From a virus: a DNA stretch of 22,192 nt. Positions 1,983-17,157 of the stretch are shown one piece after another (the stretch's first letter is position 1; every line of letters starts with the position of its first letter). A model generated the notes under the pieces. That model ran no database searches. It saw nothing but the letters and a program-made list of their open reading frames with translations, and had not been told where the DNA came from. Location: IMG/VR virus record IMGVR_UViG_3300030060_001794, positions 588 through 22,779 of that record; one strand, written 5' to 3'. The position numbers were made by a program, and so were the translations under genes.

Positions 1983-2426
1983 ATGACCTTTGCAAATGGT
2001 AATCGTTCACTTGCAATCTGCGATAGATGTGGACAGCAATATAAGTATTTACAATTAAGACAAGAATGGAATGGATTGTTTACATGTCCAGAATGTTTTG
2101 AACCTAAACACCCACAACTCGATCCTGGATATCATCCTGCCGATGCAATAGCTTTAAAAGATCCAAGACCTAATCAAAATGCAATATTAAAAGCTAATTC
2201 TCCAACAGGTCCCGATGATGCAACATTTAATAATTTTGGTCAACCTATGCCTGTGACTGTGTTTATCGGAGATCCTGGCGATAGTGCTTTTATGACTACA
2301 AGACAAGCTACCTCACCTGATGATGGCACTGCACCTACAGATACTAATAGTATGTTACCACAAATACCTCATCAAAAATTGACAGTTGTATCTGCGGTTG
2401 GTACAGTGAGCGTGGTGATTACATGA
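1983..2426 (+). CDS. Zinc-ribbon phage protein
   Basis: A 147-residue protein with two knuckles, CDRCG (Cys13, Cys16) and CPEC (Cys35, Cys38), separated by 18 residues. This is the classic spacing of a treble-clef or zinc-ribbon site binding one Zn2+. The knuckles are followed by KHPQ and by a Pro-rich linker containing KDPRPNQN. The C-terminal half, from about residue 70, is rich in Pro, Thr, Asp and Val and ends in hydrophobic beta-like strands (KLTVVSAVGTVSVVIT), suggesting a small beta domain. Proteins with this 'CDRCG...W.G...C..C...RHPQ' start are common beside structural genes in phages, from memory, and no precise role is known. It lies between two adaptor-type genes and overlaps the next by 4 bases (ATGA), so a connector-associated or assembly role is likely. 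Confidence 0.75.
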   Translation: MTFANGNRSLAICDRCGQQYKYLQLRQEWNGLFTCPECFEPKHPQLDPGYHPADAIALKDPRPNQNAILKANSPTGPDDATFNNFGQPMPVTVFIGDPGDSAFMTTRQATSPDDGTAPTDTNSMLPQIPHQKLTVVSAVGTVSVVIT

Positions 2427-3115
2427 ATTATTCTGAGCTATTAGACAATGTTAGAAACTATACTGAGGTCACATCAGATGTTTTATCTAATGCAGTGGTA
2501 AATGTTTTTATTACAAATATAGAAAATCAAATTGACAGACTCGTTGATACAGACGCACAAAGAAGATATGCAACAACTACTTTTGAAGCAAACAATTCTT
2601 TTCTAGATGTATCTGGACCAGAGGGTGGATTTAGATTTGCTAGAGGTTTACAACTACACAAAACAGACGGAACTATTGTTTGGTTAGAACAGGTTGACAC
2701 AACTCTAATAGACGAATATGGAGTTGAAAGATCTACAACAGATTCAAATTTTACAGGTGAACCAAAGTATTGGGCAAATTGGGATTCTAATACATTAATT
2801 GTTGCGCCTACACCTAACATTGCTTACACAGTTGAAATGTGGTACGACGAGAAACCTGAAAGAATAGGCAATGGTACAGGTAGCACAGCTACAACAACTT
2901 TTGTTTCAAACAATGCACCCGAAGTTTTATTGTATGGTGTTTTGTCAGAAGCTTATTCATACTTGAAAAATACTCAAGATATGCAATTATACACGCAGAA
3001 GTTCCAGACTGCCTTACAGGCTTTTGCAAATGAGCAAATGGGACGTAAACGAAGAGATGAGTATGTTGATGGAGTTTTAAGAGTACCCTTACCATCGGCA
3101 GACCCAAAAGCCTAA
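2423..3115 (+). CDS. Head-tail adaptor, SU10-type phage adaptor family
   Basis: A 230-residue protein matching the phage adaptor family typified by phage SU10. It has an N-terminal helical region (MNYSELLDNVRNYTE, then a long helix with NIENQIDRLVDTDAQRR). This is followed by a beta region with the diagnostic GEPKYWANWD (112-121) and IVAPTPNIAYTVEMWY (126-141). The C-terminal helical part begins NNAPEVLLYGVLSEAY (163-178) and has LYTQKFQTALQAF after it. In the family these proteins form the ring between portal and tail nozzle. The ATG overlaps the preceding stop (ATGA), so translation is coupled. Its presence together with the nozzle protein at 12446-14272 supports a short-tailed virion. This is one of the safer functional calls in the window. 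Confidence 0.82.
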   Translation: MNYSELLDNVRNYTEVTSDVLSNAVVNVFITNIENQIDRLVDTDAQRRYATTTFEANNSFLDVSGPEGGFRFARGLQLHKTDGTIVWLEQVDTTLIDEYGVERSTTDSNFTGEPKYWANWDSNTLIVAPTPNIAYTVEMWYDEKPERIGNGTGSTATTTFVSNNAPEVLLYGVLSEAYSYLKNTQDMQLYTQKFQTALQAFANEQMGRKRRDEYVDGVLRVPLPSADPKA

Positions 3116-4723: not shown

Positions 4724-5758
4724 ATGAGCACATATACAGATAGACTTAAACTCGAATTAATGGCTAGCGGTGCTAACGCCAATACATGGGGCACAAGAAC
4801 TAATAATAATTTAAATGTTATTGATACCTTTGGTGACGGATATATTTCTAAAGACGTAGCTGGTTCAGCTAATATTACACTAACCACAGGTAATGCTGAC
4901 CCAAGCGCAGAGGCAGCAAACAAAGTCATAGAATTTACTGGAGCACTTACTGGTGACATTACTGTTTTTGTTCCTGCTGTCGAAAACAATTATATATTTT
5001 TTAATAATACATCTGGCTCTCAAACTTTAAAAGTTGCTCCAACAGGACACGCATCTAATTCAGTTACAATTACACAAGGTGCACACACTATTGTTTATAA
5101 TAGAAACGATAATAAAATGATTGACCTTTTTGCTAACTCACTTGGCACCGTAAGTTTTAAAGGAGTAGGTAATGTTGCAGGTAATGTAACAGTTAGAGCT
5201 AATGGTCAAATAGTTGCTTCTTCTTTTACTGGTGCAGGTGGAGATTTATCAGGCGTAAGCACCTTACCTCAAAATACACAAATGGTTTTCTTACAAGCAG
5301 CAGCACCAACAGGTTGGACTCAAAATACAACTGCTGCTTTAAATAAGTCCACACTAAGAATTATTACATCAGGAACTGCAGGTACAGGTGGAGCAAATGA
5401 TTTTGATGATGTTTTCACAAGCTCAAAAACAACTTCTGGTTCTGCTACATGTGACATATCTCCTTTGACTGTAAGTGGAGGTACTTGTTCAGATCATACC
5501 TTGTCCACTCCAGAAATACCAAGTCATACTCACCCATACCTAAGTGGAAACCCAATGGTAAATAGACGATCTGGTCCTAAAAGTGTTTTGGGTGGAAGTA
5601 CAAATAGTTCTAACAGCACAGGAGGTGGTGGATCTCATACTCACCCAATTACAGGAGCTGGATCAGTTTCTGGAACTGTCGCTGCACCATCAGTTGCATT
5701 TTCAGTGCCAGCAATGGACGTAAAACATTCAAACGTTATAGTGTGTAGTAAGGATTAA
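4724..5758 (+). CDS. Tail fibre / receptor-binding protein, copy 1 of 3
   Basis: A 344-residue protein. The N-terminal 145 residues (STYTDRLKLELMASGANANT, then NKVIEFTGALTGDITVFVPA and NYIFFNNTSGSQTLKV) are shared with the two following genes and probably form the virion-attached base. A middle part contains FLQAAAPTGWTQNT (189-202), a motif typical of phage tail-collar or fibre tip proteins. The C-terminal part has SHTHP at 267-271 and GGGGSHTHPI at 300-309. In T4 gp37, HxH motifs of this kind line the fibre tip and coordinate iron; a similar trimeric metal-stabilised needle is inferred here. No ribosome binding site is evident before the ATG. There is no signal peptide. This is one of a tandem triplication, so it may give the phage alternative or heteromeric receptor binding. 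Confidence 0.75.
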   Translation: MSTYTDRLKLELMASGANANTWGTRTNNNLNVIDTFGDGYISKDVAGSANITLTTGNADPSAEAANKVIEFTGALTGDITVFVPAVENNYIFFNNTSGSQTLKVAPTGHASNSVTITQGAHTIVYNRNDNKMIDLFANSLGTVSFKGVGNVAGNVTVRANGQIVASSFTGAGGDLSGVSTLPQNTQMVFLQAAAPTGWTQNTTAALNKSTLRIITSGTAGTGGANDFDDVFTSSKTTSGSATCDISPLTVSGGTCSDHTLSTPEIPSHTHPYLSGNPMVNRRSGPKSVLGGSTNSSNSTGGGGSHTHPITGAGSVSGTVAAPSVAFSVPAMDVKHSNVIVCSKD

Positions 5759-5759
5759 T

Positions 5760-6815
5760 ATGGCAAGTACGTATTCAGATAGATTAAAATTAGAGTTGAT
5801 GGAAACAGGTGCAAATGCAAATACCTGGGGAGACAATACTAATACAAACTTACAATCAGTAGATGCTTTTAATGCAGGTTACTTATCAAAATCCGTGGCG
5901 GGATCTGCTAATATTACTTTATCTACCGCTAATGCAGACCCTAATTCAGAAGCTGCTAACAAGGTAATAGAATTTACTGGAGCTCTAACAGGATCTATTA
6001 CAGTTTTTGTGCCTGCAGTCGAATCAAACTATATATTTTTTAATAATACAAGCGGATCTCATACACTTACAGTAGCTCCAACTGGTCACGCATCTAATGG
6101 TGTTGCAATTGTTCAAGGCGCGCATACGATTATGTATAATAAAAGTGATAGAATGGTTGATTTATTTGCTAATTCATTTGGTAATTTATCTGCAAAAGGC
6201 AAAATTCAAATTGGTGATGACGTTACATTAAATGCTAACGGCGTTGTTGCTGCTACAACATTAAAAGGAGATGGATCAGGATTGTCAGGTGTTCAAGAGT
6301 TTCCGGCAGGTACTAAAGCAACATTTGTTCAAACATCAGCACCAACAGGATTTACAACAGATACTACCTCAACATTGACTGAGTGTTGTTTACAAGTAGT
6401 AAATGGTACTGGTGGAGGCACAGGTGGTGCAGATACATTTAGTAGTGTTTTTTCAGGATCTAAAGCTGCGTCAGCCGCATCTGCCCCTATTGATATAAGC
6501 AGTCTTTCTTTAACAAGTTCACTTGCTGCTGGAGCTACAACACTTTCAACTCCTACTATACCTAGCCACACTCATACTGCGAGTGCAGGTGGCGGAGGTA
6601 CAACACCACAATGTACTAACAGATCACAAAACCCTAGTGTGGTAACAAGATTGTCACCTACAGGTGCAACATCAGGTAGTGCTGGTAGTGGTGGAAGTCA
6701 CTCACACACTATATCGGGTGTAGGATTAAGCGGAACATTAAACGCACCTGTTTCTGCAAGTGTTCCAAATATGGACTTAAAATTCACAGATAGTATAATA
6801 GCAACAAAGGATTAA
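5760..6815 (+). CDS. Tail fibre / receptor-binding protein, copy 2 of 3
   Basis: A 351-residue paralogue of the preceding fibre, starting 1 base after its stop. The base domain is conserved (STYSDRLKLELMETGANANT, NKVIEFTGALTGSITVFVPA). The collar-like motif is changed to FVQTSAPTGFTT (189-200), with Phe in place of the usual Trp. The tip motifs are SHTHT at 269-273 and SHSHT at 313-317, so the Pro following HxH in the other copies is lost. A Cys pair (TECCLQ) and a Gly-rich loop (SAGGGGTTPQCTNRSQN) are specific to this copy. It is probably expressed from the same transcript. The divergence of the tip with a preserved base suggests a different surface ligand; this is inferred. Confidence 0.73.
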   Translation: MASTYSDRLKLELMETGANANTWGDNTNTNLQSVDAFNAGYLSKSVAGSANITLSTANADPNSEAANKVIEFTGALTGSITVFVPAVESNYIFFNNTSGSHTLTVAPTGHASNGVAIVQGAHTIMYNKSDRMVDLFANSFGNLSAKGKIQIGDDVTLNANGVVAATTLKGDGSGLSGVQEFPAGTKATFVQTSAPTGFTTDTTSTLTECCLQVVNGTGGGTGGADTFSSVFSGSKAASAASAPIDISSLSLTSSLAAGATTLSTPTIPSHTHTASAGGGGTTPQCTNRSQNPSVVTRLSPTGATSGSAGSGGSHSHTISGVGLSGTLNAPVSASVPNMDLKFTDSIIATKD

Positions 6816-6818
6816 AAA

Positions 6819-7859
6819 ATGTCAAGCACTTATTCAGATAGATATAAATTAGAACTACAAGTCACCGGTGCTAACTCAGGCACATGGGGTACGAATACAA
6901 ATAATAATTTAAATGTTATTGATGCTTTTACAAATGGTTACTTAGCTAAAAGCGTTGCAGGTTCAGCTAACGTTACTTTAACTACAGCAAACTCAGATCC
7001 TTCTGCTGAAGCATCCAATAAGGTAATAGAATTTACGGGAGCTTTGACAGGGAACATACATGTATTTTTACCTGCAGTTGAATCAAACTATATTTTTTTT
7101 AACAACACAAGTGGTTCACATACTCTGAAAGTTGTTGCTACTGGTCACGCCGCTAATGCAATAGAATTAGTGCAAGGCTCTCATACTATTGCCTATAACA
7201 GAGGCGATAATAAAATGGTAGATTTGTTTGCTAATTCTCTTGGTGATTTAAGTATTAAAAATTCTTTAACAGTGGACAGCACAGTCATAACAGCAGCCAA
7301 TGGTACTATTAATGCTACTGCATATTCAGGTAATGGAGCTGCACTTACCGGTGTTTCTAGTATACCTGCAGGATCACAAGCATTATTCTTCCAAGGTTCT
7401 GCTCCTACAGGATGGACACAGAACACAGACGCATCAATTAACACAACCACATTACAAGTTGTGACAGGATCTGGAGGCGGTACAAATAGTGGTGACGCTT
7501 TTGCTACAGTTTTTCCTGCATCTAAAGCAACTCCTTCTGGTCCTATTACTTTCAATAACATAGACAGCGCGTCAGCAAGTGCAGGAACTTTAGCTGTTGG
7601 TGACACTACTTTATCTACTCCAGTATTAGCTAGTCATGCACACCCTGTTGTTGGTGGTAGTGCAGGTATTGGAACTAGAGATGATAACCAGTTTACAGCT
7701 GCAACAACTACATTGAATGCTACAGGTGGCGGTGGATCACATACTCACCCAATCTCAGGTAGTCTTACTGTGGCAGGTAGTGCCTCAACAACAACAGCTT
7801 TGACTATTCCTGATATGGAATTAAAATTTGCAAATGTTATTGCTTGTTCGAAAAGTTAG
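6819..7859 (+). CDS. Tail fibre / receptor-binding protein, copy 3 of 3
   Basis: A 346-residue paralogue, starting 3 bases after copy 2. The base domain is conserved (STYSDRYKLELQVTGANSGT, NKVIEFTGALTGNIHVFLPA, NYIFFNNTSGSHTLKV). The collar-type motif is FFQGSAPTGWTQNT (190-203). The tip motifs are SHAHP (272-276) and GGGGSHTHPI (303-312). It is more like copy 1 at the tip and more like copy 2 in parts of the base, indicating exchange between copies or stepwise duplication. The Gly/Ser/Thr-rich C-terminal region is typical of intertwined beta-helical fibre tips. Its role is probably host recognition at the end of the short tail. Confidence 0.75.
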   Translation: MSSTYSDRYKLELQVTGANSGTWGTNTNNNLNVIDAFTNGYLAKSVAGSANVTLTTANSDPSAEASNKVIEFTGALTGNIHVFLPAVESNYIFFNNTSGSHTLKVVATGHAANAIELVQGSHTIAYNRGDNKMVDLFANSLGDLSIKNSLTVDSTVITAANGTINATAYSGNGAALTGVSSIPAGSQALFFQGSAPTGWTQNTDASINTTTLQVVTGSGGGTNSGDAFATVFPASKATPSGPITFNNIDSASASAGTLAVGDTTLSTPVLASHAHPVVGGSAGIGTRDDNQFTAATTTLNATGGGGSHTHPISGSLTVAGSASTTTALTIPDMELKFANVIACSKS

Positions 7860-7875
7860 TATAATATCCTAACAA

Positions 7876-8343
7876 ATGCCAATATTCGACCCCGATGGTA
7901 AATGTCCTCTTTTAAATAAAAAGTGCATCAAACACCAATGTGTTTGGTATAATATGCTTCAAGGTAAAAACCCACAAAACGGAACTAATGTGCAAGAGTG
8001 GGGATGTTCCATAGCATGGATACCCTTACTTTTAGTAGAAAATACAGGCAAACAAGTGCAAACTAATGCTGCAGTTGAGTCTTTTAGAAATGAAATGGTA
8101 AAAGCTAATATGGTTACTTTAGCTTTAGTAGATAAAAAAAATAAAGAAGATGAGCAAAAACAGAACCCAGTCGGTAGTTTTTGGAGTAAAATAGCACACG
8201 GTCAAGACGCTTTAGCAAATGGCGAAGATATGGAAGAAGATATGCAGTTGCTTCAGAATAAAAAAAATGTTAAAAAGAAGAAAGAAACTAAAAAGGTAGT
8301 TAAAAAAAATGGCAATAACAATAAACACCGTAACAATAAATAA
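7876..8343 (+). CDS. Cysteine-motif phage protein with Lys-rich tail
   Basis: A 155-residue protein. The N-terminal region has four cysteines, Cys10, Cys17, Cys22 and Cys44, in the context CPLLNKKCIKHQCVWY and WGCSIAWIPLL. This could bind zinc or an iron-sulfur cluster. It is followed by NAAVESFRNEMVKANM (a helical segment), a polar middle and a Lys/Asn-rich low-complexity tail from about residue 125. I recall similar unnamed proteins near fibre genes in marine phages but know of no function. The end of the frame overlaps the next gene by 35 bases, with the overlap beginning in a run of eight A. The low-complexity tail may therefore be partly a by-product of that overlap. A perfect TATAAT lies at 7860-7865, but no matching -35 is convincing. 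Confidence 0.65.
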   Translation: MPIFDPDGKCPLLNKKCIKHQCVWYNMLQGKNPQNGTNVQEWGCSIAWIPLLLVENTGKQVQTNAAVESFRNEMVKANMVTLALVDKKNKEDEQKQNPVGSFWSKIAHGQDALANGEDMEEDMQLLQNKKNVKKKKETKKVVKKNGNNNKHRNNK

Positions 8344-8782
8344 TAGACTAAGTATTGTAAATGATGCTGCTATAAACTCAGCTAATCCAAATAATGGACC
8401 AAGAGAATATTCTGGAGATACTGAAGCTGACGTTATAATAGATGGCTCTGGATATTTAAATATAACTGCTAGTGACATAATTCCATCAGACGTTCATGCA
8501 TTACAGTATAATGCTTCAACAAATACAGGACATTTAGAGTATGTTGGAACAGCACAAAACTTAACAATAGCTGATGCAAGTGGTTTACCTGCATGGGCTA
8601 ACACAATGGTAACTCGTTGGAACGGTGAAAAGACTTATGAAACTACATATCAAACAGAGTATGATAATGCTTTAGCTAATCTTGATGCTTCATCAGAGAC
8701 TTATGATGCAGATGTAGCTGCAGCAGACACAGCAGCAAAAGCTTCTGCGACCACAGCAAAAAATAACGTACTTAGTGCTTAA
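8309..8782 (+). CDS. Putative virion structural / fibre-associated protein
   Basis: A 157-residue protein starting at an ATG directly after an eight-A run. Its N-terminal part is beta-rich (ITINTVTINNRLSIVNDAA, VIIDGSGYLNITASDIIPSD, LQYNASTNTGHLEY). The middle has GLPAWANTMVTRWNGEKTYE. The C-terminal 45 residues are an Ala/Asp-rich helix, probably a coiled coil (TYQTEYDNALANLDASSE, then AAADTAAKASATTAKNN). A beta domain followed by a C-terminal coiled coil, with the gene next to fibre genes, resembles tail-fibre assembly or fibre-associated proteins. No exact family is recognised. It overlaps the first oxygenase gene by 8 bases, which physically links the structural module to the oxygenase module. 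Confidence 0.62.
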   Translation: MAITINTVTINNRLSIVNDAAINSANPNNGPREYSGDTEADVIIDGSGYLNITASDIIPSDVHALQYNASTNTGHLEYVGTAQNLTIADASGLPAWANTMVTRWNGEKTYETTYQTEYDNALANLDASSETYDADVAAADTAAKASATTAKNNVLSA

Positions 8783-9353
8783 TCTTAAAAAAGACGTATT
8801 AGAATATTCCATCACAATGAAAAATGTGATGAAAGAACCCCTTATAAAATTAATTAATGAACAAGTTTATAATTATATAGACTCATGGTCAAATGGTGCC
8901 ATAGCGACTGGTGAAGATTTAGGTGTCAGATCAGTTAAAGTCAAAGGTTTTGAAGAAGAAGATATTGGAACATCAGTGTCCAATAGAATTATTTACAATG
9001 ATTTACAAAGATTTACTGCGTTAATAAATAAAGAATATCAAAAAAATGTTTGTGATTTTTATACAAGTAAAGAAAGTGTTTTTCAGTTCCTTTATTATGA
9101 CTCAAAAATGAAAGGTCATTACGATTATCACACTGATTATATGAAAGAACATCCAAGAGTATTGACTATATTAGTGGGTTTAAATTCTGTTAATGACTAT
9201 GATGGCGGAGAGCTTTTTGTACAAAACAATGAAAAAGGCGTAAAACTAGATAAGGGAGACGTAGTTGCATTTCCATCTAATTTTATGTACCCACACAAAG
9301 TATCACCCATTACAAGGGGAGAGAGAAGAGTTTTAATAATATGGACCCAGTAG
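8775..9353 (+). CDS. 2OG-Fe(II) oxygenase, prolyl-4-hydroxylase-like (HxD type)
   Basis: A 192-residue protein with the complete signature of a 2-oxoglutarate/Fe(II) dioxygenase. The metal ligands HTD are His119 and Asp121 (in GHYDYHTDYM), with the distal His174 in MYPHKVSPI. Arg184 ten residues later (TRGERRVLIIW) is the expected 2-oxoglutarate carboxylate binder. The strand DGGELFV (143-149) and KGDVVAFPS (160-168) complete the double-stranded beta-helix. Length and motifs match the prolyl-4-hydroxylase-like subfamily, which hydroxylates Pro or other residues using O2 and 2-oxoglutarate. The GTG at 8775 overlaps the previous gene; ATG at 8817 (Met15) is the alternative, and neither has a clear ribosome binding site. 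Substrate unknown. It begins the accessory cluster running to 17157. Confidence 0.85.
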   Translation: MLNLKKDVLEYSITMKNVMKEPLIKLINEQVYNYIDSWSNGAIATGEDLGVRSVKVKGFEEEDIGTSVSNRIIYNDLQRFTALINKEYQKNVCDFYTSKESVFQFLYYDSKMKGHYDYHTDYMKEHPRVLTILVGLNSVNDYDGGELFVQNNEKGVKLDKGDVVAFPSNFMYPHKVSPITRGERRVLIIWTQ

Positions 9354-9946
9354 ATTATTTTAAAGAAAATAGCTATGCACATATACCTGGATTAGTTTCA
9401 CCGGATTTATCTAGTTTTATTTATAATTACTTAATAATAAAATCATGTACAAATGTTGATTTTGATCAACAATTTAAACCAGGCTTTGATACGTATATAA
9501 GATATTGCTATGGAGATATTGCCATTGAAACATTGTCATCTACGCTATTAGAAAAAATGTCTTTTATTACACAAAAGAAACTTTGCCCTACTTATTCATA
9601 CTGTCGTGTATATACAAAAGGTGAAATTCTAAAACCACATACAGATAGACCAGCTTGTGAATACTCTGTTACAATTAATTTTGGTGGAGATCCATGGCCT
9701 ATATATTTTGGCGAGTTTAATAAGGATAATAATTTAGATAATGGATATAAAATGAAAAACGAAATCTCTTTAAATCCAGGCGACGGAATAGTTTATATGG
9801 GAGAAAAGCTAATACATTGGAGAAATAAATTTATTGGTGATCACTGCGCACAAGCTTTCTTACATTACATTGATAGTGAAGGATTACACTACCCAGAACA
9901 TGCATACGACGGGCGTACTAATATCGGTTACAAAAACGCAAAGTGA
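9341..9946 (+). CDS. 2OG-Fe(II) oxygenase family protein (HxD type)
   Basis: A 201-residue protein starting at an ATG that overlaps the previous gene by 13 bases. The iron site is HTD (His100, Asp102) in ILKPHTDRPACEYSVTINF, and the distal His is His159 in KLIHWRNKF. The segment WPIYFGEF (119-126) and NPGDGIVYMGE (145-155) complete the fold. Where classical members carry Arg about ten residues beyond the distal His, the motif here is HCAQAFLHYID, so Gln171 or Arg161 may take that role. This 'KPHTDRPxCEYS...HWRxxxxG' type is, as I recall, widespread in marine phages and bacteria and is often labelled proline hydroxylase without biochemical proof. The substrate is unknown. It is coupled to the next gene by a GTGA overlap. 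Confidence 0.82.
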   Translation: MDPVDYFKENSYAHIPGLVSPDLSSFIYNYLIIKSCTNVDFDQQFKPGFDTYIRYCYGDIAIETLSSTLLEKMSFITQKKLCPTYSYCRVYTKGEILKPHTDRPACEYSVTINFGGDPWPIYFGEFNKDNNLDNGYKMKNEISLNPGDGIVYMGEKLIHWRNKFIGDHCAQAFLHYIDSEGLHYPEHAYDGRTNIGYKNAK

Positions 9947-10494
9947 TAAAAACTTTTTACACAGAAAAGTATTATCATTCAAAAATAGACAATAATGTGT
10001 GCAAAGAATCTTTTAATTTCATAAATAAAGAAAATAAAAATTACACAGAACAAAGTTGGAACTGTAAAATTAGGACATCTTTAAATGTTACCGATAATAT
10101 TCTTAATGAAAAAGAAATGTTAAACACAAAAATGAACATACTTGGTCATATAGAAAATTATATGCATTTAAATGGAAAATATTTTTATGGTTATATAATT
10201 ATGTCATGGGCCAATATATACGAAAAAGAATTCTTTCAAGAAAAGCATACCCATGAGCATAGCTGTAATAAACATTTAAGTGGCATATTGTACTTAACAG
10301 AAAATAATTCAAACTTAAATTTATACTCTAGTAATCTCTCGGAGGTTACACCCGTAAAACCTGAATTTGCAGATATAATAATTTTTGAGGATGATCGTCC
10401 GCACAGCGTAGAAGTTAATGCAGAAGAAACATTAAGGATTAGTTTAGCTTTTAATTACCTATTAGTATCAGAATGGAATGGTAGAAAAGTTTAA
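9943..10494 (+). CDS. Putative 2OG-Fe(II) oxygenase-like protein (HxH type)
   Basis: A 183-residue protein starting at GTG, overlapping the previous TGA (GTGA); the next in-frame ATG is far inside the protein. The fold is indicated by FQEKHTHEHSCNKHLSGILY (98-117) and by ADIIIFEDDRPHSVEV (143-158) with LRISLAFNY (164-172). Probable metal ligands are His102, His104 and His154, with Arg165 placed as the 2-oxoglutarate binder. The usual Asp/Glu after the first His is a His; Glu105 follows it. The 'HxHxxs...LSGilYl' and 'PHSV......RiSlaFN' wording resembles the Pfam family of putative 2OG-Fe(II) oxygenases PF13759, from memory. It appears paralogous to the protein at 11918-12427. Activity and substrate are unknown. 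Confidence 0.72.
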   Translation: MIKTFYTEKYYHSKIDNNVCKESFNFINKENKNYTEQSWNCKIRTSLNVTDNILNEKEMLNTKMNILGHIENYMHLNGKYFYGYIIMSWANIYEKEFFQEKHTHEHSCNKHLSGILYLTENNSNLNLYSSNLSEVTPVKPEFADIIIFEDDRPHSVEVNAEETLRISLAFNYLLVSEWNGRKV

Positions 10495-11087
10495 TGGAAA
10501 TAAATTACAAATTTTATTACTGGGGTCCTTTTCTGTTAAAGACACGTATTGACGAAAATTTAAGAAATGATTTGTTGAATGAATGTAAAAAAGCAAAGTC
10601 TTATTTTGCACATGATTTATCTAAATTAGAGGATGAGTACACGTTCGATGATCAACAATTAGCAAAGTTTGTACCAAGATTAAAAATATATTTAGATATG
10701 TACAAGAAAGCATACCAAGAACATTGGGATTGTGGTCTTATTGATGATATTAAAATACAAGCTATGTGGGTGAATTTTCAAAAAGAGAATGAATGGAGGC
10801 CACCTCACTTTCACAGCAATTGTGATGCATCATATGTTATCTACCTAGATGTTCCGAGTGTAGAAAGTCTAGGTGAAAACGTAGGTAATGAATACACCCC
10901 AGGTGGTATTGTTTTTAAGAATGACCTTAAAGCACAATTTCAAAACAAATTAAAAAGCATAGACCGACTTGCTTATCTACCAGAAAATGGAGATATGTTT
11001 ATATTTCCTTATGACCTTGAACACTATAGTGTCCCATTCAAAACAAAAGCAACAAGAATATCTTTATCAGGTAACTTAGAGATTTAA
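10494..11087 (+). CDS. Putative 2OG-Fe(II) oxygenase-like protein (HxH type), paralogue A
   Basis: A 197-residue protein starting within the previous stop (TAATG). A helical N-terminal half leads into the beta-helix domain at IQAMWVNFQKENEW (88-101). The metal motif is RPPHFHSN (His105, His107), followed by SYVIYLDVP (113-121). Then come GDMFIFPYDLEHYSVPF (166-182, with His177) and RISLSGNLEI (Arg188). The order first-His, HxH, distal His and Arg is that of a 2OG oxygenase domain with His in place of the carboxylate ligand. It is clearly paralogous to the gene at 16567-17157, sharing WVNFQKxxE, PxHxH, VIxxxVP, IFP/LFP..DL.H and RxSxSGNL. Proteins with this wording occur in marine phages, as I recall, and are labelled 2OG-Fe(II) oxygenase; no activity is known. 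Substrate unknown. Confidence 0.72.
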   Translation: MEINYKFYYWGPFLLKTRIDENLRNDLLNECKKAKSYFAHDLSKLEDEYTFDDQQLAKFVPRLKIYLDMYKKAYQEHWDCGLIDDIKIQAMWVNFQKENEWRPPHFHSNCDASYVIYLDVPSVESLGENVGNEYTPGGIVFKNDLKAQFQNKLKSIDRLAYLPENGDMFIFPYDLEHYSVPFKTKATRISLSGNLEI

Positions 11088-11102
11088 TGAAAGGAAAGAC
11101 AG

Positions 11103-11918
11103 ATGATAGATCCTAAAGAAATAAAAAATAAAAATTTTAAAATATTTGTAGGTATGCCTATGTACGGAGGTATGTTGTCAGAGGCAACAATGCATGGCAT
11201 TTTAGACTTACAACAATGGTCTTTGTCTGCTGGAGTACATATGAGATTTCAGACAATAGGCAATGAAAGTCTTATTACTAGAGCTAGAAATACAATCGTA
11301 TCACAAATGTTTGACTCACAAGATTTTGTAGCAACACATTTACTCTTTATTGATTCAGACATAGGGTTTACATGGCAAAACATAGATCGATTAGTCAGAT
11401 TTGATAAAGATGTTGCTTGTGGTATATATCCTAGAAAACACATACATTTTGAAAAAATGGCAAAAATATTGAGAGAAAAACCTGACGCTACAGAAGAAGA
11501 ATTAGAGATTAAGGCATTAGGATATAATCTGAATTTTGATGATCCAATGAATGTCAAACTGCAAGACGGGTTTTGTAAAGTTAATGAAGCAGCAACAGGC
11601 ATGATGCTAGTAAAAAGAGAAGTCTTTAAAACTATGATGGATAAATTTCCTGAAAGACAGTATGAGTCTGATCAAATAATTAATGGTAAGTCTTACAAAT
11701 CAGACAATTGCTATGATTTATTTGCAGTTGGTCCTTATTTAACAAAAGCTATTAAAGGTGAACCACAAAAAAGGTATCTATCAGAGGATTATTATTTCTC
11801 TAGACTCTGGCAAGAATGCGGTGGAGAGATCTGGGCAGACATGGCAATGCCTCTTACACATTTCGGAAATAGAGCTTTCAAGGGTCATGTAGGTAGTTTA
11901 TTAGCTGAAAAAAAATAA
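11103..11918 (+). CDS. GT-A-like glycosyltransferase
   Basis: A 271-residue protein preceded by AAAGGAAAG, one of the few clear ribosome binding sites in this region. The first strand, FKIFVGMPMYGG (12-23), and a helix with NESLITRARNTIV (54-66) look like a nucleotide-sugar-binding fold. The segment THLLFIDSDIGF (78-89) contains the DxD motif Asp84-Ser-Asp86, expected to hold a divalent metal and the sugar nucleotide. Later motifs are EAATGMMLVKREVF (162-175), LSEDYYFSRLW (226-236, a typical acidic ED acceptor-side motif) and PLTHFGNRAFKG (His253), which can be a metal ligand in GT-A enzymes. It is probably a cytoplasmic retaining or inverting GT-A transferase; the donor and acceptor are unknown. 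Embedded among oxygenase genes, it could glycosylate a hydroxylated residue; this is inference. Confidence 0.75.
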   Translation: MIDPKEIKNKNFKIFVGMPMYGGMLSEATMHGILDLQQWSLSAGVHMRFQTIGNESLITRARNTIVSQMFDSQDFVATHLLFIDSDIGFTWQNIDRLVRFDKDVACGIYPRKHIHFEKMAKILREKPDATEEELEIKALGYNLNFDDPMNVKLQDGFCKVNEAATGMMLVKREVFKTMMDKFPERQYESDQIINGKSYKSDNCYDLFAVGPYLTKAIKGEPQKRYLSEDYYFSRLWQECGGEIWADMAMPLTHFGNRAFKGHVGSLLAEKK

Positions 11919-12427
11919 TGAAAGAACTTTTAATTAGAAAAGATTCTTTATATGTAGCACAATATAGTGGTAATTTAGATGTATTAGAGGACCAAATTTC
12001 TTATATTCGTAGACATGATCCGGGTAGAATAGTATCTAATATCGGAGGATATCAAAGCAACAATATAAGTTTTGGGTTTGATGATTTAATATTTTTTGCA
12101 ACAGCTAAGTTAGCAGAGATAGGAGTGCAGGCTCGTTTAAATTGTTTTTGGCTTAATGCAAATAAAGGTAGCGATTGGAATGCTTCTCACATACATAATA
12201 TAACAGGCGGTTTTTCAGTGGTATATTATCATAAAATTTGTTGTGACAAATGTCCTATAATTTTCAGTCATTTAATACCCTGTATATATGGGGATGAAAT
12301 AAAATACTCGCCTAAACAACAAGATATTGTGTTCTTTGATGATAGAATACCTCACTCGGTACAGCCTTGTAATCAAAGTGATCACGAAAGAATATCGGTC
12401 GCTTTTAATTTTGATCTGGTAAAATAA
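11918..12427 (+). CDS. Putative 2OG-Fe(II) oxygenase-like protein (HxH type)
   Basis: A 169-residue protein starting in the glycosyltransferase stop (TAATG). The core is CFWLNANKGSDWNASHIHN (76-94) with HIH (His91, His93), then GGFSVVYYH. Next come QQDIVFFDDRIPHSVQP (134-150, distal His146) and ERISVAFNFDL (Arg158). This matches the HxH...H...R pattern and the 'FFDDRxPHSV...RISvAFN' wording of the 9943-10494 protein, with which it appears paralogous, and resembles PF13759 as I recall it. A cysteine-rich stretch KICCDKCPII (106-115) with Cys122 further on is peculiar to this protein and could bind an extra metal or form a disulfide. No carboxylate ligand follows the first His. Activity and substrate are unknown. 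Confidence 0.7.
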   Translation: MKELLIRKDSLYVAQYSGNLDVLEDQISYIRRHDPGRIVSNIGGYQSNNISFGFDDLIFFATAKLAEIGVQARLNCFWLNANKGSDWNASHIHNITGGFSVVYYHKICCDKCPIIFSHLIPCIYGDEIKYSPKQQDIVFFDDRIPHSVQPCNQSDHERISVAFNFDLVK

Positions 12428-12445
12428 ATATAGTATATTGAACAA

Positions 12446-14272
12446 ATGCCCCTAGTAAATTTTAGACCCGCACCAGGTATCAACAAAGAAGTCACTGATT
12501 ATACAGGTCAGGGTAAATGGACTGATGGTGATATGGTGCGTTTTTTTCAAGGATCTGCACAAAAAATAAAGGGTTGGGAGAAGTTTATAGCCAAAACTCT
12601 GGTAGGTGCAGCTAGAGATCAGCACGCTTATGTAGCCTTAGACGGCACAAGATATAATGCTGTAGGCACTGATAGAAAATTATATGTAATTGCAGAGGGT
12701 TTAGCATACGACATAACTCCTCTAAGAAGAACACAAGCAAGAACAAATCCTTTTACTACAAACGCTACTACATCGGTCGTGGTGTCAGATTCAGGACACG
12801 GTTGTATAAAAGGCAGCTTTGTTACTTTTGACTCATTTAGTGCGATTGATGGACTTGATATGAATAAAGAGTTTGAGGTTACTTCAGTTGTAAACACTGC
12901 TGCTTATGTTGTAACTCATACTAGCACAGCGTCTGGATCTACATCTGGAGGCGGTGGCACAGGTAACATGAAGTATCAGATAAATCCTGGACCTGAGTTT
13001 TCTTTACCCGCCTTTGGTTGGGGCACAGACGAGTATGGTGTATCTACATGGAATACACCAAGATCTACATCTAATGTAACATTAGAGGCAAGACAATGGT
13101 CACTAGATAATTTTGGTCAACTGCTTATTGCTACTGCCTTAAATGGCGGAGCTTTTGAATGGGATCCTGACGATGGTGTAACCACAAGAGCAACTGCCAT
13201 AGCTAATGCACCTACAGCATCTAGATTAAGTTTAGTTTCAACACCAGATAGACATATTTTATTTATGGGAACTGAGGGAACAATAGGTACAACAAATACA
13301 CAAGATGATTTACTACTAAGGTTTTCTAGTCAAGAAGATAGAAATACATATCAACCAACAGCAGAAAATACAGCAGGTTCTTTGCGCATAGCCGACGGTT
13401 CACGGATCGTTGCCGCAGAGAGATCTAGAGGACAGATACTTGTATGGACAGACACATCACTGCACGCTTTACAATTTATAGGACCACCTTTTACATTTGG
13501 TCTAAGACAGTTAGGTCAAAACTGTGGTATTATAGGTATGCACGCAGGTGTTGATATTAATGGTGTAAGTTATTGGATGTCACAAGATTCATTCTTCTTA
13601 TTCGATGGTTCTGTAAAAAAACTACCTTGTACTGTAGAACAATTTATTTTTAACAATATTAATGTAACTGGTGCAGAAAATGCTTTTGCAGGACATAATG
13701 GTGAGTTCAATGAAATCATGTGGTTCTACCCAAGAACTGGCTCTGATCAAATTAATGCTATTGTGGCTTATAATTATCTAGAGCAAACTTGGTGGACAGG
13801 AACGCTTGATAGAACAACTTGGACTGACAGAGAAGTATATGATAATCCTGTAGCATCTGATTACTTACCAACGACCACGGCCAACAATGAAGTAATTCTA
13901 GGTTTGACTGATGGAGCTACTCAAATGTTTTTACATGAAACAGGTAATGACGGTGATGGTCAAGCTATTACTGCTTTTGTAAAATCAGGTGTTGTTCAGA
14001 TAGCCCAAGGTGATGATTTTGCATTTGTATCAAAACTAATACCTGATGTTGAAGATCAAGCTGGTGTGTTAAACGCAAAGCTTGAATTTAAAAATTATCC
14101 AAATAACAGCACAGCAGTTACTAAAACAACAAGTTTTAGTGATACAACAGATTTTGTAAGTTTAAGAGGTAGAGGGAGAGAGTTTACAGTCAACGTAGTT
14201 TCTAACACAGCAGGTACTGCATGGAGATTAGGAACACAACGTTTTGACATACAGCCAGATGGAAGAAGATAA
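12446..14272 (+). CDS. P22 gp10-like tail nozzle / packaged-DNA stabilisation protein
   Basis: A 608-residue structural protein beginning MPLVNFRPAPGINKEVTDYT, then WTDGDMVRFFQGSAQKIKGW (25-44). It continues through a long series of beta strands of propeller type (for example NFGQLLIATALNGGAFEWDP, SRGQILVWTDTSLHALQFIG and INGVSYWMSQDSFFLFDG). It ends in a jelly-roll-like tail with RGRGREFTVNVVSN and a terminal DIQPDGRR. This order of motifs is that of the phage stabilisation protein family (P22 gp10), which forms the tail nozzle under the portal. A Gly/Ser/Thr-rich insert near residues 155-175 (STASGSTSGGGG) is a likely linker. Oxygenase genes lie directly before it and a cupin-like gene overlaps its end by 14 bases, so this essential tail gene is embedded in the accessory cluster. 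Confidence 0.78.
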   Translation: MPLVNFRPAPGINKEVTDYTGQGKWTDGDMVRFFQGSAQKIKGWEKFIAKTLVGAARDQHAYVALDGTRYNAVGTDRKLYVIAEGLAYDITPLRRTQARTNPFTTNATTSVVVSDSGHGCIKGSFVTFDSFSAIDGLDMNKEFEVTSVVNTAAYVVTHTSTASGSTSGGGGTGNMKYQINPGPEFSLPAFGWGTDEYGVSTWNTPRSTSNVTLEARQWSLDNFGQLLIATALNGGAFEWDPDDGVTTRATAIANAPTASRLSLVSTPDRHILFMGTEGTIGTTNTQDDLLLRFSSQEDRNTYQPTAENTAGSLRIADGSRIVAAERSRGQILVWTDTSLHALQFIGPPFTFGLRQLGQNCGIIGMHAGVDINGVSYWMSQDSFFLFDGSVKKLPCTVEQFIFNNINVTGAENAFAGHNGEFNEIMWFYPRTGSDQINAIVAYNYLEQTWWTGTLDRTTWTDREVYDNPVASDYLPTTTANNEVILGLTDGATQMFLHETGNDGDGQAITAFVKSGVVQIAQGDDFAFVSKLIPDVEDQAGVLNAKLEFKNYPNNSTAVTKTTSFSDTTDFVSLRGRGREFTVNVVSNTAGTAWRLGTQRFDIQPDGRR

Positions 14273-14804
14273 AGTTACTAAAATTCTAAAAGAGTTGAAG
14301 GTATCTATTACAGAGTCAGAAATCTTAGATAGATTGTTAGATAGATTAAGGTGGCCAAAAACATACTCGTTGTATGATATGCCTAGCGTAGAAGCTATTA
14401 ATGAAGATGGTAGTAAACACCAGAGTTTTTTTAATGATGACGATTATCTAAACTCAATGAATTGTATTCAATGTTATGAAGAAGGTTACACTCTTATATT
14501 ATCAAATGTTGGTGGTTTATGTAAAGACTTATGGCTGATACAAGAAATTTTATCAGATAATTTCAAAAGATTTATAAATTGCAATTTGTATTTTGGTAAT
14601 GGTAAAAAATCCGTATCATTTAAAAAACATAGGCATGAGTATCCTGTAATAGTAAAAAATTTATACGGTTCGTCTAAATGGATTATTAACGACAAAGAAA
14701 TTGTATTAAATGATCAAAATGCAATATGGTTTGATAAAGAGACTGATCATCAAGTTATCGAAATTAATGAGCCTAAGGCATCATTAACTTGTAACATAGT
14801 ATAA
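14259..14804 (+). CDS. Cupin/JmjC-like metal-dependent oxygenase candidate
   Basis: Read from ATG 14259 (181 residues). A TTG at 14244 would add five residues, but both starts lie in the end of the preceding gene, and the ATG is favoured. The C-terminal third is a double-stranded beta-helix segment. VSFKKHRHEYPVIV (119-132) carries His124 and His126, followed by NLYGSSKWIINDKEIVL and AIWFDKETDHQVIEI with distal His164. The pattern 'H-x-[HD]-x-Y...G.k.W.i....i.L.......H' is what cupin-type and JmjC-type proteins show. JmjC oxygenases usually have HxD; here the second ligand is His. The N-terminal 100 residues are unfamiliar, with several Cys. Function is not known; a dioxygenase or simply a metal-binding fold is possible. 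Distinct in sequence from the other cluster members. Confidence 0.55.
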   Translation: MEEDKVTKILKELKVSITESEILDRLLDRLRWPKTYSLYDMPSVEAINEDGSKHQSFFNDDDYLNSMNCIQCYEEGYTLILSNVGGLCKDLWLIQEILSDNFKRFINCNLYFGNGKKSVSFKKHRHEYPVIVKNLYGSSKWIINDKEIVLNDQNAIWFDKETDHQVIEINEPKASLTCNIV

Positions 14805-14806
14805 AT

Positions 14807-15538
14807 TTGTTAGATAAAAAAATTAAATTCATAACCCCGTTCAAAGGTTTTATACCTGATCCTAAGCCTGCATCTTTTTTTATACCAAAAGAATACAAAA
14901 ATTTAAAAGCATATATGACCGACTCAAAAAAATATCCTACCGTAAAAAAATGCATACCTTTTTTAGATGCTTATTCATTAGGATACATCATACCCTTTCC
15001 ACTAGATATTGAATATCGATCAGCTACAATTGATCCTGAGGATGGTAAAGAAGAGGGTGCTGAGTTTTCAATAAACGCTATTCTGCCAGAAAATTTTGTT
15101 GGTTTTTTCAATATACTATCTCATGCACAGCATCAATCTACACCTGAATTAAGAAATCCTAAAAGAACAATTGACAAAGTATTTAAATTTTCCAACCCTT
15201 GGAAAATAAAAACACCTCCTGGTTACAGTTCATTGATAGTAACTCCTTTAAATCATAATCTACCTTTTGATTTAATTTCAGGGGTAGTCGATACAGACAC
15301 TTATGATAACAACATATTGTTCCCTTTTTATTGGACAGGACCTACTGATAAGAGCACCTTATTGAAAAAAGGCACACCATGGGTACACGTAATACCTTTT
15401 AAAAGAGAGGCTTGGAAGATGGAGACTGATTATCAAGATATAGAAAATTTTAGAAATACTTACAAAAGACTTAGTTTTTTTTCAAAAATGGCTGACAATT
15501 ATAAAAATTTGTCTTGGATAAAGAAAACTTTCAAGTAA
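14807..15538 (+). CDS. DUF6065 family protein (TTG start)
   Basis: A 243-residue protein. An in-frame stop at 14792-14794 leaves TTG at 14807 as the only usual start before the conserved region. Characteristic segments are VKKCIPFLDAYSLGYIIPFP (46-65), NPWKIKTPPGYSSLIVTPLN (130-149), SGVVDTDTYDNNILFPFYW (158-176) and KKGTPWVHVIPFKREAWKME (187-206). By recollection this is DUF6065. It is common in marine phages and often near oxygenase genes, but its biochemical role is undetermined. The NPWxIKTPPGYS and VIPFKRE wording, with few acidic motifs, gives no catalytic clue. No Cys cluster, membrane segment or signal peptide is present. It starts 2 bases after the cupin-like gene, with which it is probably co-expressed. 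Confidence 0.72.
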   Translation: MLDKKIKFITPFKGFIPDPKPASFFIPKEYKNLKAYMTDSKKYPTVKKCIPFLDAYSLGYIIPFPLDIEYRSATIDPEDGKEEGAEFSINAILPENFVGFFNILSHAQHQSTPELRNPKRTIDKVFKFSNPWKIKTPPGYSSLIVTPLNHNLPFDLISGVVDTDTYDNNILFPFYWTGPTDKSTLLKKGTPWVHVIPFKREAWKMETDYQDIENFRNTYKRLSFFSKMADNYKNLSWIKKTFK

Positions 15539-15547
15539 GATTTAATT

Positions 15548-15718
15548 ATGGCAAAACTATCATTAACAAGATTTCCTGATCCTAGAGATGATTATGACAG
15601 GCAACAGCAGGCTGAATTGATAAGACAGCTTGAGGACTTAATACTTCAATTAAATAGTTCTTATACACAGGATACGCAAGAGGAGTCAACGAGAAGGGCA
15701 TGGTTTTTAAGTGTCTGA
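15548..15718 (+). CDS. Short coiled-coil phage protein (56 aa)
   Basis: An ATG at 15548 opens a 56-codon frame ending TGA at 15716-15718. The sequence begins AKLSLTRFPDPRDDYDRQQQ and continues with a predicted helix, AELIRQLEDLILQLNSSYTQ, with Leu/Ile heptad-like spacing. Similar tiny proteins with a 'PxPxDxYDRxxxxELxRxLExxixqLN' pattern are common next to tail genes of phages, as I recall, and are unnamed. It fills the gap between the DUF6065 gene and the next protein and overlaps the latter by 8 bases. The recognisable pattern and position make it more than chance. A structural or oligomerisation role is a guess. Confidence 0.6.
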   Translation: MAKLSLTRFPDPRDDYDRQQQAELIRQLEDLILQLNSSYTQDTQEESTRRAWFLSV

Positions 15719-16067
15719 CGTATTTAAAAGATTTATAGCGAATATTACCACAACAGATTTAACCACTGTGTTTACTGTTCCGACAGCTAATGTAGCATCT
15801 GTGCCACCCGTGCCTGTTTCTACATTTATTGTTAAGACAATTAATATACATAATTATGATGGATCAAATGCTGTGACGGTTGACGTGGACCATAACAATG
15901 GCACCGCCGATTTTCAAATATTTCAAGTGGATGTTGCTGCAAGTAACACAAATACTATTAACTCAAGTATTGTTTATCAAGAAGGTGATGCCTTTAAAGT
16001 ACAGGCAAACGCAGCTAGCAGAGCTATGGTGGAAGTATCAGTGTTAGAGGTTAAACAACAACTTTAG
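15711..16067 (+). CDS. Small beta-sandwich virion protein candidate
   Basis: A 118-residue protein starting at GTG within the end of the preceding gene. It has few charged residues and a beta-strand-rich pattern. Segments are FKRFIANITTTDLTTVFTVP (5-24), TFIVKTINIHNYDGSNAVTV (38-57) and SSIVYQEGDAFKVQANAA, ending VEVSVLEVK. The 'DLTTVFTVPTANxxxVxxIxIxNxxGs..VTV' wording recalls small structural proteins placed near tail genes. Such proteins typically have an immunoglobulin-like or jelly-roll fold, but the assignment is only by resemblance. It is co-translated with its neighbours: the GTG of the next gene overlaps its TAG (TAGTG). There is no sign of a metal site. Confidence 0.6.
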   Translation: MSDVFKRFIANITTTDLTTVFTVPTANVASVPPVPVSTFIVKTINIHNYDGSNAVTVDVDHNNGTADFQIFQVDVAASNTNTINSSIVYQEGDAFKVQANAASRAMVEVSVLEVKQQL

Positions 16068-16567
16068 TGAAAGATCTTATTTTTAAAAGCAAAGTAGGAA
16101 ATAAAGAAATTAAAGACAAACTTTTAGAACAGATACACTTGATACCCACTAATCCAATAGTGGAAAATGATCAAAACATATTACATACGGATTGGAACTT
16201 ACCCTCTGCGATGCATAGAGAGTATGAAAAATTATTTTTTGAAATAATACGACCACATTTACAAGATGTAACTACAAAATTAGGTTGTGCTTTTTATGGT
16301 ATAACTCGTCTTTGGTTTCAAAAATACGGGACCAAAGGACATCATGGCTGGCATACACACCCTGGTGCACAATATAGTAATGTTTATTATTTAGAGTGCC
16401 CTGAAGGAGGTAGTACAAAGTTTAAAGATATTGACGTAAATTGTGAGGAGGGGGATCTTTTATCTTTTCCAGCGTTTCTAGCACATCAATCTCCACCCTG
16501 TTTATCAGAAACACCAAAAACAATCATATCTTTCAATTGTGATTTTAGTGTGGTACCCTTCGAATAA
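16067..16567 (+). CDS. Putative 2OG-Fe(II) oxygenase-like protein (HxH type, GTG start)
   Basis: A 166-residue protein whose GTG start lies in the previous stop (TAGTG). After LGCAFYGITRLWFQKYGTKG come the key motif HHGWHTHPGA (His96, His98) and YSNVYYLECPEGGSTKF. GDLLSFPAFLAHQSPP (129-144) carries the distal His140, and Lys151 appears where an Arg is usual (PKTIISFNCDF). The HTHPG followed by 'YxxVYYLxxPEgg' strand is the best match in this window to PF13759-type proteins as I recall them. Substitution of Lys for Arg is known to occur in some 2OG oxygenases; here it is only an observation. Substrate unknown. The gene is joined to the next by TAATG. Confidence 0.75.
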   Translation: MKDLIFKSKVGNKEIKDKLLEQIHLIPTNPIVENDQNILHTDWNLPSAMHREYEKLFFEIIRPHLQDVTTKLGCAFYGITRLWFQKYGTKGHHGWHTHPGAQYSNVYYLECPEGGSTKFKDIDVNCEEGDLLSFPAFLAHQSPPCLSETPKTIISFNCDFSVVPFE

Positions 16568-17157
16568 TGTATATTATTGCAGACGTACCTAAAGAACTTC
16601 TTAATAAGTTAGAAATTTGTATACAAGAGAAGGGCCTTGATAAATACAATAAAGAACTTGCTGGAAATATAAAAAGGGAATACGGAATACCAAAAGGTAA
16701 ATCTATAATATCACCCTTTTTGATGCAAATGATTCTTGCGTACAATGAAAAATATCCAAAGTTTTGGAAGGTAAGACATTCCATGATGAAATATAAGCCA
16801 GTGGATGTGGAGCTACAAAGCCTCTGGGTTAACTTTCAAAAGAAATATGAGTTCAATCCAATGCATACTCACGATGGTATATGGAGTTTTGTTATATGGC
16901 ATAAAGTGCCTTATTCAATAGAAGATGAAAAACAACAATTTCCAGAAACAAATATGGATGATATCAGAGCAGGTATGTTTTCTTTTTTTATGCTTGATCC
17001 ATCTGGTAGAATATACCAACAACCTATTCAAGTTGACAAAACATGGGAAGGTAAAATAGCTTTATTTCCTGCCGACCTTAATCACATGGTATATCCTTTT
17101 TACACATCTGATGATTATAGAGTATCTATATCTGGTAACTTAGGTTTTAAGATATAA
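16567..17157 (+). CDS. Putative 2OG-Fe(II) oxygenase-like protein (HxH type), paralogue B
   Basis: A 196-residue protein starting in the preceding stop (TAATG). It is closely related to the gene at 10494-11087. Shared or similar blocks are LQSLWVNFQKKYEFNP (83-98), MHTHDG (99-104, His100 and His102), WSFVIWHKVPYS (106-117), KIALFPADLNHMVYPF (163-178, distal His173) and YRVSISGNLGF (Arg185). The metal motif is HTHD, so Asp103 sits beside the second His and could substitute as ligand if the alignment shifts. The helical N-terminal 80 residues are unrelated by eye to other domains. It is the last oxygenase-like gene of the cluster. Activity and substrate are unknown. Confidence 0.72.
   Translation: MYIIADVPKELLNKLEICIQEKGLDKYNKELAGNIKREYGIPKGKSIISPFLMQMILAYNEKYPKFWKVRHSMMKYKPVDVELQSLWVNFQKKYEFNPMHTHDGIWSFVIWHKVPYSIEDEKQQFPETNMDDIRAGMFSFFMLDPSGRIYQQPIQVDKTWEGKIALFPADLNHMVYPFYTSDDYRVSISGNLGFKI

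Follow-up and report, generated by a model that had tools for sequence, protein, structure and literature searches.

Clustered oxygenase genes were reported in 2022 for the HTVC023P-type pelagiphages (Wittmers et al. 2022, PMC9599517), in which eight non-orthologous, co-located oxygenase families occur and a gene annotated as a ferrochelatase always lies beside an oxygenase. The locus described here belongs to the same phage group, and the placement of oxygenase genes among tail genes is already known from these related SAR11 phages. Tandem genes of the same families are also found in cyanophage arrays (Syn9 gp45-gp60; S-SCSM1, with 24 2-oxoglutarate (2OG)-Fe(II) oxygenase genes, PMC9602691; T4-like phages, PMC3037559), and that of Syn9 likewise includes a DUF6065 gene and a relative of the gene designated OX2 below, together with a tryptophan halogenase gene. 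These arrays differ from the present locus, however, in that they belong to T4-like myoviruses, and the Syn9 array has no flanking annotated fibre genes in the stretch examined. A viral pairing of hydroxylase and glycosyltransferase is provided by the Mimivirus procollagen lysyl hydroxylase (6ax6), whose hydroxylase domain is matched by the OX1 profile with an E-value of 0.002. That protein is a single bifunctional enzyme acting on collagen, whereas the genes considered here are separate and no substrate resembling collagen was identified. Ocean-phage genes of these kinds underlie a published seasonal signal (PMC11561400).

The DNA analyzed, hereafter the window, is a stretch of 22,192 nucleotides from a 22.8 kb viral fragment (IMG/VR record IMGVR_UViG_3300030060_001794, positions 588 to 22,779). 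The tail backbone is syntenic with those of the HTVC023P-type pelagiphages, apart from the position of the glycosyltransferase-like gene, and the nozzle protein is 40.5% identical over 93% of its length to that of HTVC023P and 38.8% identical to that of HTVC027P. The region is best explained as an island of modification genes within the tail locus of a marine podovirus related to HTVC023P, and from these relatives we infer SAR11 as the host. There are no tRNA genes in the window. The features of the locus are given below, with putative metal sites as read from the sequence.

4724..7859 (4724-5758, 5760-6815, 6819-7859), plus strand: three tandem fibre-like paralogues, candidate substrates, matching phrog_31104 (unknown function)
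8309..8782, plus strand: g8309, in a presumed "fibre-tip" position between the fibres and OX1
8775..9353, plus strand: OX1, PKHD/P4H-like Fe(II) oxygenase (PF13640, 1.8e-14); H119xD121..H174, R184
9341..9946, plus strand: OX2, phrog_2954 "ferrochelatase" family, re-read from its predicted fold as an Fe(II) oxygenase; H100xD102..H159
9943..10494, plus strand: OX3, PF13759 family (3.1e-10); HxH..H, 102/104/154
10494..11087, plus strand: OX4, PF13759 family (2.3e-12); HxH..H, 105/107/177
11103..11918, plus strand: GT, glycosyltransferase-like with a DSD motif (phrog_1574, 3e-39; phrog_34859, 1e-5)
11918..12427, plus strand: OX5, PF13759 family (4.2e-8); HxH..H, 91/93/146
12446..14272, plus strand: nozzle/stabilisation-like structural protein of the backbone (phrog_3287, 5e-84)
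14244..14804, plus strand: CUP, JmjC/cupin-fold protein (weak Pfam matches and predicted fold); HxH..H, 129/131/169
14807..15538, plus strand: DUF6065-related gene in a variable slot (phrog_7084, 4e-43)
15711..16067, plus strand: g15711, small backbone gene (phrog_19211, 3e-5)
16067..16567, plus strand: OX6, PF13759 family (3.3e-10; PDB profile match 2rg4); HxH..H, 96/98/140
16567..17157, plus strand: OX7, PF13759 family (4.4e-10); HxH..H, 100/102/173, R185

As can be seen, the eight open reading frames named in the original prediction are all present, although that at 14259 may begin at 14244, and the nozzle gene lies in the middle of the oxygenase cluster. The predicted chaining by stop/start overlaps was likewise borne out (8775/8782, 9341/9353, 9943/9946, 10494/10494, 11918/11918, 16067/16067 and 16567/16567). 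A fibre role for the three paralogues is inferred from their position and their HxH collar-like C-termini. The glycosyltransferase label is weakly indicated by the phrog_34859 match and by Anp1 in 6 of 20 relatives. That of DUF6065 derives from relatives, 14 of 17 of which carry PF19541; the window copy itself does not. Profile searches with GT, OX7, and the DUF6065-related gene gave no convincing solved relatives.

All eight proteins can be assigned to the double-stranded β-helix (DSBH) fold. Six of them, OX1 and OX3 to OX7, score above the Pfam cut-off, with the PF13759 matches of the latter five ranging from 4e-8 to 2e-12. The product of the gene at 9341 (OX2) matches no Pfam profile and that at 14259 (CUP) matches JmjC_2/cupin profiles weakly, but both are predicted to fold as DSBH proteins with pLDDT values of 88-89, and their models match JmjC ribosomal oxygenases and 2OG oxygenases. 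The textbook HxD...H iron site is limited to OX1 and OX2, and is invariant in their alignments. The sites of OX3 to OX7 and CUP read as HxH...H rather than the HxD/E...H of the 2OG-Fe(II) oxygenase superfamily, as does that of 2rg4, which is of the same Pfam-type family as the PF13759 members. These six are consequently described as proteins of the DSBH metalloprotein type for which 2OG dependence is unproven and any hydroxylation presumed. A basic residue follows the distal histidine by approximately 9-12 positions in OX1 (Arg 184), OX3, OX4, OX5, OX6 (Lys 151), and OX7. OX2 has none at the canonical 2OG position; its Arg 161 and Arg 192 are invariant.

The identity of OX2 as a ferrochelatase was rejected on the basis of both sequence and predicted structure. 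The PF00762 domain is absent from OX2, is listed for none of 36 relatives, and was found in none of seven phage genomes, with positive controls detected in 8 of 14 cases. The predicted fold is not the Rossmann-like one of a chelatase but an all-β DSBH preceded by N-terminal helices, the top matches of which are 2OG oxygenases; the sequence-profile search returned no solved relatives. This member of the phrog_2954 family is thus predicted to fold as an Fe(II) oxygenase, an assignment that is new here. CUP superimposes upon the JmjC ribosomal oxygenases NO66, MINA53, and YcfD (Z 15.3, rmsd 3.0, 168 aligned residues), but it is half their length and carries an HRH...H triad in place of HxD...H. 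The triad histidines are lost in one relative (L063).

A comparison was made with 43 related contigs in which the interval is complete. The cluster keeps its position within the tail genes of these relatives rather than being scattered. Indeed, 230 DSBH genes lie between the fibre genes and g17199 in the 43 intervals versus 8 in approximately 399 kb of flanking DNA, and none lies downstream of the interval. The eight genes had been thought far beyond the usual phage number, but an exceptional count is ruled out, as the relatives hold 3-10 (median 5) and published counts reach the 24 of S-SCSM1. Four slots within the interval show 25, 11, 10, and 13 arrangements among the 43 contigs, and only OX1-OX2 and GT are near-constant. 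A multi-step hydroxylation system had also been proposed. The DSBH folds and the conserved location are in keeping with it, but a single coordinated system is not supported, and a fixed series of eight steps is ruled out by the turnover of the slots. Because slot content varies between relatives, a mosaic of separate modifying enzymes fits better than a pathway.

OX1 and OX2 form a linked pair. Of the close loci, 62 of 66 have a same-strand DSBH gene directly before OX2, mostly overlapping it, as do 76 of 78 loci in a broader set, and the oxygenases reported as "nearby but not adjacent" (PMC9599517) are here mostly adjacent and overlapping. In some relatives the position of g8309 is taken by tail-fibre-assembly-like (TFA) or phrog_7759 genes. 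OX1 directly follows g8309 in 36 of 36 cases and TFA in 13 of 13, whereas after phrog_7759 a different oxygenase comes first (13/13 close relatives); in all 13 TFA contigs, a DUF6065 gene follows OX2. The tip-class label changes twice on the OX1 tree and twice on the OX2 tree, which is the minimum, as compared to ten times for GT and seven for the nozzle. Judged by gene order and trees, OX1-OX2 is co-inherited with the putative fibre-tip gene, which is new here and, together with the slot structure and the predicted fold of the "ferrochelatase," adds to the earlier account (PMC9599517). The fibre-side layout is the same in the isolates HTVC023P and HTVC033P. Co-variation of OX7 with the tip, suggested by a mean-identity test, showed no excess over the nozzle in the tree test. 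OX2 and OX1 both match the family phrog_3531 (362 positions), at 64-171 and 260-361, respectively, which hints at an OX2-OX1 fusion; no DSBH frame longer than 280 residues was found in 85 further loci.

In the mechanism that we propose, OX1 and OX2 would be Fe(II)/2OG oxygenases produced alongside the tail proteins and would hydroxylate side chains of the adjacent fibre or tip proteins, perhaps to create acceptor sites or to add stability. Further decorations, differing from strain to strain, would come from GT together with the DSBH proteins and transferases of the variable slots, and may tune how the virion binds its receptor or how stable it is. The reading we tentatively favor, at somewhat less than even odds, combines a fibre-linked pair of hydroxylases, whose presumed substrates are proteins of the virion or its fibres, with a set of exchangeable tailoring genes. 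A literature search found no relevant report of hydroxylated phage virion proteins, and no Gly-X-Y repeats were seen on reading the window fibre proteins by eye.

Adjacency alone could explain why OX1-OX2 stays with the tip, which counts against fibre modification. Also counted against it are the negative outcome of the literature search, the missing 2OG basic residue of OX2, the HxH sites of six proteins, the location of the HTVC027P oxygenases on the opposite strand, and the cyanophage relatives of OX2 that lie away from tail genes, the P-SSM7 copy being among replication genes.

The alternative that survives best, although we consider it rather unlikely, is that the oxygenases, GT, and the variable transferases and epimerases act on glycans, either those of the infected cell's envelope or one added to the virion, for instance to prevent superinfection or adsorption to debris. 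The slots of relatives do hold sulfotransferase, carbamoyltransferase, NAD-dependent epimerase, glycosyltransferase, and halogenase genes, GT is a conserved neighbor (mean column identity 79%), and SnoN, EctD, and other small-molecule oxygenases are among the fold matches of OX2. The relatives of OX1 (PiuC, P3H1, and P4H among its PDB profile matches), however, are mainly protein or peptide hydroxylases, and it is OX1-OX2, not GT, that tracks the fibre tip. Less probable is a role in auxiliary metabolism or host takeover, through modification of host proteins such as EF-Tu or ribosomal proteins, or through a draw-down of 2OG that reprograms the cell, as suggested for cyanophages (PMC3037559). 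A top fold match of OX2 is the Pseudomonas putida EF-Tu prolyl hydroxylase and CUP resembles the ribosomal oxygenases, but CUP, with its HxH, also lacks the conserved lysine at the JmjC 2OG position in our reading of the alignment, and neither the placement among tail genes nor the co-inheritance with the fibre tip is explained. It is more doubtful still that the tail region is simply a recombination hot spot that gathers small genes without a common role. The strong slot turnover would be expected of such cargo, but DSBH genes dominate slot B (35 of 39 genes) and slot D (55 of 61), OX1-OX2 is near-universal, and purifying selection acts on OX1, OX2, and OX7. Modification or repair of DNA is very improbable. 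Hypermodification genes are known in HTVC023P-type phages (PMC9599517), a repair role has been suggested for cyanophage 2OG enzymes (PMC3037559), and the fold matches of OX2 include AlkB structures. The published hypermodification genes, however, are located close to the DNA polymerase rather than in the tail region (PMC9599517), and the solved-structure matches of OX1, mainly protein or peptide hydroxylases, include no AlkB.

Few of the unexplained "auxiliary metabolic genes" in ocean phages are as widespread as genes of this sort. The re-reading of OX2 removes the proposed haem link of the phage "ferrochelatase," and the oxygenase-ferrochelatase partnership becomes an oxygenase-oxygenase pair. 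Returning to the hydroxylase pair, it is possible, though less probable than the general reading favored above, that each receptor-binding tip type has its own pair modifying the tail fibre before assembly, such that receptor specificity or virion stability would depend upon enzymatic side-chain oxidation, varied further by swappable tailoring enzymes. The tie of OX1-OX2 to the fibre tip makes hydroxylation of fibre proteins concretely testable in isolated pelagiphages.

The window takes in most of a linear virus record of 22.8 kb, and its tail genes all lie on one strand. Ten window proteins were included in a family scan against Pfam and PHROG, with the following results for the eight genes originally predicted to carry a double-stranded-beta-helix (DSBH) signature.

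8775, tail-gene strand: OX1, PF13640 above cut-off
9341, same strand: OX2, phrog_2954, named "ferrochelatase"; Pfam scan without match
9943, same strand: OX3, PF13759 above cut-off
10494, same strand: OX4, PF13759 above cut-off
11918, same strand: OX5, PF13759 above cut-off
14244, same strand: CUP, weak JmjC/cupin matches
16067, same strand: OX6, PF13759 above cut-off
16567, same strand: OX7, PF13759 above cut-off

AlphaFold models of OX2 and CUP were built on alignments of relatives (pLDDT of 88.1 and 88.9, respectively). The OX2 model matches SnoN (VIA Z of 16.5), PHD2 (Z of 15.6), P4H, and EctD, and the CUP model matches NO66, MINA53, and YcfD. Given the Pfam families of six proteins and the structural matches of these two, all eight are DSBH proteins. 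The original prediction had made the fold of most of the eight its test, and the predicted folds leave it standing. Searches with the sequence profile of OX1 retrieve PKHD-type hydroxylases, P4H, P3H1, and the mimivirus lysyl hydroxylase, which are mainly protein or peptide hydroxylases. The PHROG labels "DNA endonuclease V" (phrog_274, phrog_2297) and "minor coat protein" (phrog_1644) apparently also fall on DSBH or DUF6445 oxygenase-like proteins, some below the Pfam cut-off (5171-6878 of the Syn9 locus, L089; 8775-9353 and 11918-12427 of the window).

The putative metal site is HxD..H in OX1 and OX2 and HxH..H in OX3-OX7 and CUP; in a profile alignment, OX6 shares its HxH with 2rg4, a solved protein of unknown function. 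In OX2, no basic residue stands at its usual place, +9 to +12 past the last histidine; the invariant R161 and R192 may substitute for it. A CUP relative (L063 12827-13492) and its close copies have lost the metal-binding histidines, which suggests a non-catalytic cupin.

OX2 aligns with the genes labeled "ferrochelatase" in HTVC023P, HTVC033P, HTVC008M, P-SSM7, Syn9, and 023Pt_psg01, all of which share its H100, D102, and H159. Ferrochelatase identity was rejected: PF00762 is absent from those six genomes and HTVC027P, and is found in 8 of 14 control genomes. One record is doubly labeled "putative ferrochelatase / putative Fe(II) dependent oxygenate superfamily protein". No published correction to oxygenase was found in the portions of the literature covered; work resting on the label includes PMC9599517 and PMC11561400.

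Contrary to the original claim, the gene number is not exceptional. The nozzle protein retrieved 80 related loci (83-100% nozzle identity), and the 43 contigs spanning fibre to g17199, the downstream end of the interval, carry 3-10 recognized DSBH genes (median 5; window 8), counts that are lower bounds, since several of the slot genes left unassigned have DUF6445 or JmjC_2 matches. Published figures are at most five such oxygenase genes for T4-like cyanophages (PMC3037559) and 24 for S-SCSM1 (PMC9602691); for HTVC023P-type phages, Wittmers et al. had reported eight non-orthologous 2OG-Fe(II) (2-oxoglutarate) genes that are co-located with "ferrochelatases" (PMC9599517). The oxygenase-cluster pattern is therefore known.

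The usual gene order is fibre(s), tip gene, OX1, OX2, slot A, the glycosyltransferase-like gene (GT), slot B, nozzle, slot C, the small backbone gene g15711, slot D, and g17199. Slot contents are highly variable, with 25, 11, 10, and 13 arrangements for slots A-D, the first figure also counting the tip gene and OX1-OX2. Of the 39 genes found in slot B, 35 are DSBH genes, as are 55 of the 61 in slot D. Between fibre and g17199, the 43 contigs together hold 230 DSBH genes, versus eight in ∼399 kb of flanks from all contigs and none downstream. In a broader OX2 set, 76 of 78 OX2 genes directly follow another DSBH gene, and at least 36 of 67 oxygenase runs start behind a phrog_7759 gene. The slots of relatives also hold sulfotransferase, carbamoyltransferase, tryptophan halogenase, epimerase, and GT genes. 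Tryptophan-halogenase-type genes lie within oxygenase runs of relatives at L062 13105-14595, L063, L064, L110 2403-3923, and L119 2375-3856; similarly, Syn9 has one near its oxygenase array.

Contigs were classed, with labels of our own, by the gene right after the fibres: g8309 (the "fibre-tip" gene), a tail-fibre-assembly-like gene, or phrog_7759. On quick trees of metagenome contigs, which are non-independent samples, tip class changes twice (the minimum) on the OX1 and OX2 trees, 10 times on that of GT, and seven times on that of the nozzle, versus 19-23 on average with shuffled labels. For contig pairs with nozzle identities of 0.75-0.92, identity within versus between classes is 0.43 versus 0.26 for OX1, 0.50 versus 0.34 for OX2, and 0.79 versus 0.79 for GT. 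Thus, at the class switches that the nozzle tree implies, OX1-OX2 moved with the tip and GT did not. Linkage alone can explain OX1-OX2 staying with the tip; it is the separation of OX2 from GT, although the two often lie near each other, that hints at a functional unit.

Rough NG86 dN/dS ratios (window copy versus four relatives, several dS values above 1) are 0.06-0.38 for OX1 and OX2 and 0.02-0.24 for OX7. For OX6, the ratio rises to 0.61 in one comparison, between copies that share 23% identity and are probably not orthologues.

On the fibre side, three tandem fibre-like paralogues (4724-7859; relatives often have just one or two) combine a conserved N-terminal half with a diverged C-terminal half bearing SHTHP-type motifs. 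The conserved protein of 7876-8343, whose gene always precedes g8309, is rich in Cys at its N-terminus and ends in a conserved C-terminal tail rich in Lys and Asn. PF24175, the SU10 adaptor family, has matches in two window genes, at 1302-1979 and 2423-3115. The phrog_7759 family adjoins the oxygenase run at L117 419-835 and at least 36 broader loci, and conserves seven tryptophans and three prolines at 85% or more; its protein is a possible substrate.

The main rival explanation for the role of these enzymes is glycan tailoring. The best-supported mechanism, which we advance tentatively, is that enzymes encoded alongside the tail proteins would modify virion or fibre proteins, a reading in which the substrate, residue, and benefit are all inferred.
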